From: Methanoculleus chikugoensis
GTDB taxonomy: Archaea; Halobacteriota; Methanomicrobia; Methanomicrobiales; Methanoculleaceae
DNA: 64,000 bases
NCBI RefSeq assembly: GCF_019669965.1
Contig: NZ_AP019781.1
Coordinates: 930,001 to 994,000 of the forward strand
Direction: 5' to 3'
Under the pieces are notes generated by a model that was not told the DNA's origin, made no database searches, and saw only the letters and a list, made by a program, of their open reading frames with translations. Within the stretch, counting starts at the first letter, position 1, and each line of letters begins with the position of its first letter. Shown here piece after piece: positions 14,931-17,080 of this stretch. The position numbers were made by a program, and so were the translations under genes.

Positions 14931-16169
14931 CTAAACCTTCTCGTCGTCGGAAGGAATCAGTTCGGCGGTGACGTAGTGCCGGCGGTTTTTGGTTATCACC
15001 GCCCTCCCGGTGAATCCGAACGGCAGATCCTCTTCTACGACGACGTTGAGGTAGCAGGGATTTCGGCAGACGGTCGATCCCGGCGCGTTCTTCTCGGTCG
15101 CAACGATCGCTGTCTCCCGCCCGATCCAGCGCTCATTGTAGGAGTCGTAGATCCGGTTTGCTTCGGCAAGCAGCGCCCGGGAGCGGTCTTTGCGTATCCG
15201 CTCGGGGAGGTCTTTTAGGGCCGCGGCGGGCGTTCCGGGCCGCCGGGAGTAGCGGGTGATATTCACCTTCACGAACGCCGCTCTCCGGAGGAGTTCGAGC
15301 GTCTGTGAAAACTCTTCGTCCGTCTCCCCGGGAAACCCGGTGATGAAGTCGGAGGAGATCATCATATCCGGGTAGCAGTCCCGGAACGTATCGACGATCC
15401 GGACGACGTCGGCCGCAGCGTAGCCGCGCTGCATCCGGTCGAGGACGGTATCGGAGCCCGACTGGACGGGGAGGTGGAGGAACCGGAAGATCTTTTCGCT
15501 CTCGTACGCCCTGACGAGTGGATCGAGGATCCCGAGCACCGTAGCCGGGTGCATCATCCCCGGCCTGACGGCGAACCTTCCGGGGATCTTTGCTATCTCC
15601 TGCAGAAGATCGGGGAGCAACTCACCCCGCTCAAGCCCCCATGCGGCCACGTCCTGCCCGGTCAGCTGGATCTCATAGGCGCCCGAGGCGACGAGAGCCC
15701 GGACGGCATCGAGTATATCCTCTGCAGGCGCACTTGCGAGCCGTCCCCGGGCGAACCGGGTGATGCAGTAACTGCACCGGCCGACGCATCCGCTCGCCAC
15801 CTGCACCACGCCGGTCGCCCCCGGCCCCCGGGTGCCGACGCCGGCGGCTCGCTCACGGATCTCGTCAGGATAGATGACGTGCGGCGTGCAGACCGAACGA
15901 ATCTTATCCATCTGGACAACCGGCATGCACCCGGTCACGTAGAGGTCGCGGTCGGCGAATAGAGCGAGGCGCCGGAGCATCTTACGTTCGGTCGCGCCGA
16001 TCACCGTGCAGGTGTTGACGATGACGGCATCCGCCTCCTTCGGCCGTTCGGTCAGCGTGCAGCCGAAACCTTCCAGTATCGCCACGAGCCTCTGTGTGTC
16101 GGCATGGTTGTAGGTGCACCCGTAGGTCTCGATGTAGATCCGTCTTCCCCGCAGTTCCTCAAACGTGAT
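14931..16169 (-). CDS. tRNA t6A methylthiotransferase (MtaB/CDKAL1 family), no standard start codon
   Basis: Radical-SAM enzyme that converts t6A37 of tRNA to ms2t6A using two Fe-S clusters. The UPF0004 domain has Cys in TYGC, NTC and VTGC; the radical-SAM motif is CVGRCSYC; a TRAM-like domain ends the protein. The conserved N terminus RRIYIETYGCTYNHAD is in frame, yet no ATG, GTG or TTG occurs between the in-frame stop (16233-16235) and it. ATC at 16167-16169, nine bases after GGAGAG, is the position where ATG would be expected and is used here. The first GTG (16083-16085) would remove a cluster cysteine. About 412 residues. Confidence 0.85.
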   Translation of the reverse strand: MTFEELRGRRIYIETYGCTYNHADTQRLVAILEGFGCTLTERPKEADAVIVNTCTVIGATERKMLRRLALFADRDLYVTGCMPVVQMDKIRSVCTPHVIYPDEIRERAAGVGTRGPGATGVVQVASGCVGRCSYCITRFARGRLASAPAEDILDAVRALVASGAYEIQLTGQDVAAWGLERGELLPDLLQEIAKIPGRFAVRPGMMHPATVLGILDPLVRAYESEKIFRFLHLPVQSGSDTVLDRMQRGYAAADVVRIVDTFRDCYPDMMISSDFITGFPGETDEEFSQTLELLRRAAFVKVNITRYSRRPGTPAAALKDLPERIRKDRSRALLAEANRIYDSYNERWIGRETAIVATEKNAPGSTVCRNPCYLNVVVEEDLPFGFTGRAVITKNRRHYVTAELIPSDDEKV

Positions 16170-16321
16170 GGCGATCGACTCTCCTTGCGCGCGGTCGGCG
16201 GCCGGCCCGGGCTCCCGGCGGTCCGGTTGCCTCTATCGGTCGGAGGATAGTTTGCTCCTCTTTCGACCGGTTCCGTGCCGAGCACAATACTTAACCGCTG
16301 ACATTACAACTTCTTTATTCG

Positions 16322-17080
16322 ATGATTAAAATAGGGTTGCTGGGATGCGGCAACGTCGGGCATATCATCGCCACACACGCCGAGAGCATCCGGGTCGCCG
16401 CCGTCTTCGATATCCTCCCCGGGCGGGCGGAGGAACTGGCGGCGCTCTGCCATGCCCGGCCATACACGGACTTCGACGCCTTTATGCGGGAAGACTTCTC
16501 GATCGTCGTAGAGGCCGCCTCGGTCGACGCCGTCAGGATATACGGCGAGGCGGTTCTCCGGTCGGGACGGGACATCATCGTCCTCTCCGGGGGGGCTCTT
16601 GCGGACGACGAGTTCCGCGAGCACCTTGTCGAGGTTGCACGGGAGGCGGGAAAGAAGATCCGCATCCCGAGCGGCGCCATCATCGGACTCGACAACCTCA
16701 AGATCGGGCAGGTCTCGCCGCCGAGCCGCCTCCTCCTGCGGACGACGAAACCTCCCGCGTCGCTCGGGATGACCGCCGAAGCCCGGACAGAGATATTTAA
16801 GGGGCTGGCGCACGACTGTATAAAGCAATACCCTAAAAATATCAACGTCGCGGTAGCGTTGGGACTCGCCGCCGGCAGGGATGCCGACGTGGAACTCTGG
16901 GTCGACCCTGCGGCGGAGAGGAACATCCACGAGATATTCGTCGAGGGGGACTTCGGGGACATCTACGTCCGGGTCAGGAACGTCCCGAGCCCCGATAACC
17001 CTGCGACGAGCTATATGGCGGCCCTCTCCATCCTGACGCTCTTAAAGAACCTCGAGAACCCTCTGGTGGTGGGTACGTAA
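16322..17080 (+). CDS. nadX: L-aspartate dehydrogenase
   Basis: Cytoplasmic NAD(P)-dependent enzyme of 252 residues that oxidises aspartate to iminoaspartate, the first step of NAD synthesis in many archaea, replacing NadB. The N-terminal Rossmann motif is GLLGCGNVGH (residues 5-14); PSGAIIGLDNLK and the catalytic His in ERNIHEIFVEG match the family. It is the first gene of nadX-nadA-nadC, with two bases between its stop and nadA. An AATACTTAA element about 33 bases before the ATG may be the promoter. Confidence 0.96.
   Translation: MIKIGLLGCGNVGHIIATHAESIRVAAVFDILPGRAEELAALCHARPYTDFDAFMREDFSIVVEAASVDAVRIYGEAVLRSGRDIIVLSGGALADDEFREHLVEVAREAGKKIRIPSGAIIGLDNLKIGQVSPPSRLLLRTTKPPASLGMTAEARTEIFKGLAHDCIKQYPKNINVAVALGLAAGRDADVELWVDPAAERNIHEIFVEGDFGDIYVRVRNVPSPDNPATSYMAALSILTLLKNLENPLVVGT

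Follow-up and report, generated by a model that had tools for sequence, protein, structure and literature searches.

Within the 64,000-nucleotide stretch of genomic DNA analysed here (the window), mtaB is most probably translated from a non-canonical AUC codon at 16167-16169, replaced by AUU in several relatives and read by the ordinary initiator tRNA; we place the probability of this reading at roughly 0.88. Start position, conservation, ribosome-binding-site spacing and the absence of a conserved alternative are well supported by comparison of the aligned sequences. The original prediction had pointed out that no ATG, GTG or TTG precedes the conserved N terminus and that an ATC stands nine bases after GGAGAG. 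Reading of the frame agrees on both points and on every position given there, the first canonical codon being the GTG at 16083-16085, past the first cysteine codon. The non-standard start that it offered as one option is backed by conservation across the genus, by a coding boundary at the ATC and by Shine-Dalgarno spacing.

Identity of the gene and its enzyme

The window derives from a complete genome of 2.62 Mb, whose named relatives are Methanoculleus, the closest being M. chikugoensis with 95% protein identity. The open frame extends along the minus strand from the upstream stop at 16233-16235 to the terminal stop at 14931-14933. Its product matches TIGR01578 with 367.9 bits (curated cut-off 314.7, full length), and Pfam assigns it the UPF0004 domain (PF00919, matched from profile position 1) and the radical SAM domain (PF04055). 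A TRAM domain found no Pfam match at an E-value of 0.001, yet the TIGR01578 alignment reaches position 419 of 421. Structures of MiaB and RimO also align with the protein, and in the case of MiaB the aligned part takes in the IETYGC segment. The three UPF0004 cysteines for the auxiliary Fe-S cluster are present (ETYGC, VNTC and TGC), and all three are included only if translation begins upstream of ETYGC; the radical SAM CxxxCxxC motif reads CVGRCSYC. The gene is an archaeal t6A-tRNA methylthiotransferase (e-MtaB, TIGR01578) by these matches, with a predicted activity for its product. The archaeal methylthiotransferases MJ0867 and MA1153 belong to the same family and methylthiolate A37 derivatives in tRNA (PMC10702137); the paper describing them is silent on start codons. 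The enzyme family itself is ordinary, and the unusual start characterises Methanoculleus rather than the family as a whole.

mtaB is the first gene of its unit, with a divergent neighbour (16322-17080) that points away from it, so that no upstream gene can provide its start by coupling or fusion. Folding found no special mRNA structure around the start (z +1.7), and a sigma-70 promoter scan was uninformative here, the model not being suited to archaea.

Table 1. Features of the mtaB locus (window positions) and further genes with candidate non-canonical starts (genome and locus positions)
Feature	Position	Strand	Basis and remarks
e-MtaB/CDKAL1-like tRNA t6A37 methylthiotransferase, coding sequence from the putative AUC start	14931..16169	-	412 codons + stop; TIGR01578, PF00919 + PF04055, MiaB/RimO structure alignment
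Proposed AUC start codon (codon -13, counted from the E of ETYGC)	16167..16169	-	Genus alignment; Shine-Dalgarno spacing
GGAGAG, Shine-Dalgarno-like, 9 nt 5' of AUC	16179..16184	-	Direct reading; region kept in relatives; spacing test
Second ATC (codon -15), unlikely start	16173..16175	-	Spacing too short, less conserved; ATG there in only 2 genomes
GTG, first canonical in-frame start	16083..16085	-	Not conserved; GCG in G007; UPF0004 match shortened from it
First N-terminal Fe-S cysteine codon (TGC, in ETYGC)	16116..16118	-	Invariant in genus
In-frame stop bounding the open frame 5'	16233..16235	-	Frame reading
Leader and divergent intergenic region	16170..16321	.	Neighbour 16322-17080 (+) faces away
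ABC-transporter ATPase	G000:762681-763592; L100:12684-13592 (G000:C1:762684-763592)	-	Loci L170-L198
Initiation factor aIF1A, copy 1	G000:C1:1457323-1457637 (L211:3323-3637)	+	Loci L249-L277
Second aIF1A copy	G000:C1:110300-111100 (L334; also L336, L337, L338)	-	In-frame CTG after GGGGTTGATGAA-type sequence

Start codon of mtaB across Methanoculleus

The start region was compared in 34 distinct Methanoculleus genomes, namely those containing it, which come from separate assemblies and include complete genomes. Codon -13 reads ATC in 20 of them, ATT in nine, ATG in three, GTG in one and ACC in one; the sole genome with ACC carries an ATG two codons upstream. The alignment of close relatives that the original prediction had proposed as a check for ATG at this codon found ATG in 3 of the 34 genomes and ATC or ATT in 29. 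No ATG, GTG or TTG is present within the eight codons where the start is expected in 26 of the 34 genomes, and sporadic canonical codons occur further upstream in the open frame in a few relatives.

Coding constraint begins sharply at codon -13 across the 34 genomes. Upstream of it all three codon positions vary and no codon periodicity is seen; at codons -13 and -12 the first two positions are nearly fixed and the third is variable, and most later codons share this coding pattern. In two basal genomes codon -16, three codons 5' of the ATC, is an in-frame TGA, so that the start must lie at codon -15 or downstream of it; codon -15 itself reads GCA or GCG in these two. Wherever it could be measured, the distance from the Shine-Dalgarno site to codon -13 is, with few exceptions, 7-11 nt, which falls inside the range of genes that start with ATG in the same genome (mostly 6-10 nt); from codon -15 it would be 1-5 nt and from codon -11 mostly 13-17 nt. 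Judged by this measure, codon -13 is the only one among the tested codons to sit at the usual distance.

Alternative explanations

The original prediction had left room for two other readings of the locus, an error of one base in the assembly and a start at the GTG with loss of the N-terminal cysteine. A single base change does separate ATC from ATG, so that a sequencing or assembly error could hide a real ATG; with ATC or ATT at the same codon in about 30 separate species assemblies, this reading is already refuted by the relatives and is next to impossible. Initiation at the GTG would yield a protein that lacks the first Fe-S cysteine. In its favour, no canonical start precedes this GTG in the frame, and gene callers limited to ATG, GTG and TTG would choose it. 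In the close relative G007, however, GCG stands in place of the GTG, and the codons upstream of it are under strong amino-acid constraint, including the invariant cysteine. The conserved N terminus would be lost and the UPF0004 match would miss profile positions 1-20, which makes such a start highly unlikely.

Another near-cognate codon in the vicinity could serve in place of the AUC: ATC at 16173, ACG at 16164 and CTG at 16152 are all one base from AUG or known as weak starts elsewhere. None of the three is kept in all genomes, codon -15 being also TTT, GCG or TCT, codon -12 mostly ACC and codon -8 variable; the Shine-Dalgarno spacing is wrong at -15 and -11, and the two genomes with TGA at -16 have no such codon at -15, where they read GCA or GCG. 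We consider initiation at one of these codons very unlikely. A start out of frame or further upstream, followed by a programmed frameshift or stop read-through, could draw on an out-of-frame TTG located two to three codons downstream of codon -13 and on an ATG in frame upstream of the stop. That TTG is the best case found of a canonical triplet in another frame and occurs in 16 of the 34 genomes, so that no out-of-frame start is conserved; moreover, the upstream stop varies between species and the region upstream lacks codon periodicity, leaving very little probability for this route. Initiation at the AUC/AUU of codon -13 is the reading that we retain.

History of the AUC/AUU start

In the gene tree, ATC or ATT is found throughout the basal Methanoculleus lineages, ATG at codon -13 is confined to one clade and GTG to one tip, and three other tips have an ATG two codons upstream or downstream of codon -13. 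Replacement of this codon by ATG or GTG is the behaviour that would be expected of a start codon. The outgroups Methanofollis, Methanocorpusculum, Methanocalculus and other Methanomicrobiaceae carry ATG in the vicinity, and the distribution over the tree suggests that the AUC/AUU start was probably inherited from the last common ancestor shared by all Methanoculleus. In one related genus (L092, G036:C9:108800-111000), mtaB has ATG at codon -11 together with ATT at codon -13, an arrangement that may have been the precursor of the start seen in Methanoculleus.

Two transversion-type changes affected the third base of codon -13; the fourfold-degenerate sites of mtaB average 2.2. Tested by this rate of change, no selection against AUG was detected at the third base; since that base changes at the average fourfold-degenerate rate, AUG is also not strongly favoured at this codon.

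Further genes with apparent non-canonical starts

A blind scan compared 1.26 Mb of the source genome G000 (350001-1614000) with 1.2 Mb of G007 (200001-1400000), covering 898 conserved genes. Candidates were ranked by codon log-odds, a 60% third-position filter having missed mtaB. Of the credible hits among these 898 genes, mtaB ranked first in evidence that coding sequence precedes the first canonical start codon. Other high-ranking open reading frames were dropped as antisense, as pseudogene-like or as having a plausible GTG or ATG start, for example G000:1097317-1098375.

Two further genes show a comparable arrangement. In the gene for an ABC-transporter ATPase, a GGAGG-type site is followed at the start position by ATC in 25 and by ATA in three of the 28 Methanoculleus genomes, and 27 of these 28 have no canonical start there. 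Outside Methanoculleus, ATC recurs in this gene in one related genus (L239). In the first copy of the gene for initiation factor aIF1A, the start position is CTG in 29 of 29 Methanoculleus genomes, behind GGAGTTGAT; it directly follows an in-frame stop (TAA or TGA) in 27 of them, and no ATG, GTG or TTG occurs in the first 15 codons. In each of the four genomes examined for it, the second aIF1A copy likewise carries CTG, without a canonical start nearby upstream. The pattern GGNGTTGATNAACTG coincides with these aIF1A positions in Methanoculleus; of the sampled families of the same order, none of the others has it at aIF1A. Genus-wide non-canonical starts in the ABC-transporter ATPase and in aIF1A indicate that Methanoculleus tolerates such starts.

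Proposed mode of initiation and possible regulation

Initiation at mtaB would begin with the placement of the 30S subunit by the GGAGAG site, after which the ordinary CAU initiator tRNA would pair with the first two bases (A and U) of AUC or AUU and insert methionine. The tRNA complement is consistent with this: the initiator-like tRNA has A1-U72 and reads CAU, the methionine tRNAs look ordinary and tRNA-Ile(GAU) begins with G1. Among the 44 of 45 tRNA genes that were assigned, none was seen to encode an initiator-like tRNA whose anticodon would read AUC. The 45th (L167/L335, G000:C1:1774619-1774728, 110 bases) was found by Rfam, not by ARAGORN, and probably contains an intron.

Output of MtaB from such a codon would be expected to lie below that from AUG. 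Initiation would depend on the fidelity factors aIF1 and aIF1A, giving a low output that may respond to the stringency of initiation. In Sulfolobus, aIF1 is reported, as cited in PMC6237735, to favour discrimination against non-canonical starts; if so, mtaB expression may depend on the levels of aIF1 and aIF1A. The start codon of the aIF1 gene seems to be ATG. Regulation of mtaB via its start codon is an unproven possibility that these sequences would allow.

Bacterial genes offer the closest parallels. The gene for IF3, infC, starts with AUU in E. coli and with ATC in Streptomyces and is autoregulated (PMC5472188). It resembles mtaB in having, behind a Shine-Dalgarno site, a near-cognate AUU or AUC that differs from AUG in the third base only (PMC5472188), whereas it is bacterial, discriminated by IF3 and encodes a fidelity factor with proven autoregulation, mtaB being archaeal and encoding a tRNA-modifying enzyme. 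Streptomyces sigR has a GUC start that is repressed by IF3, with GTC in 32 and GTT in two of 34 species (PMC5472188). Like mtaB, it keeps a non-canonical start genus-wide behind a conserved ribosome-binding site and was missed by annotation (PMC5472188); unlike mtaB, whose AUC/AUU start is known from sequence, it is a bacterial gene with an experimentally proven GUC/GUU start. Among 61,358 ancestral AUG starts in 36 prokaryote groups, two switches to CUG and one to AUU were recorded (PMC5622118). Such switches are rare and were seen in close genome triplets, whereas the state of mtaB in Methanoculleus is old and kept across the genus.

The apparent CUG start of aIF1A recalls IF3, given the AUU start of infC (PMC5472188). 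One tentative interpretation, which we regard as possible but rather doubtful, is that Methanoculleus runs a circuit based on start-codon stringency. In such a circuit, CUG-started aIF1A could limit its own synthesis, its second copy apparently also starting with CUG, and mtaB and the ABC-transporter ATPase (AUC/AUU/AUA) would answer to the same stringency. The whole would be an archaeal, independently evolved counterpart of the control of infC and sigR by IF3.

Implications for start-codon selection in archaea

Non-canonical starts conserved throughout a bacterial genus were known already, and the start of mtaB extends this kind to a domain with other initiation factors. As far as the literature searched shows, the Methanoculleus genes would be the first genus-wide cases of archaeal initiation at AUC/AUU and, in aIF1A, at CUG. 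That search yielded no precedent for an archaeal AUC/AUU start, with thin coverage of subscription journals, so that earlier reports are possible. For annotation, the consequence is that gene callers limited to ATG, GTG and TTG would shorten MtaB and drop its first Fe-S cysteine. Bacterial IF3 is not known to take part in archaeal initiation. Start selection in these organisms proceeds via aIF1 and aIF1A, not IF3, and genes of this kind open the fidelity of archaeal start choice, with its possible autoregulation, to direct experiment.
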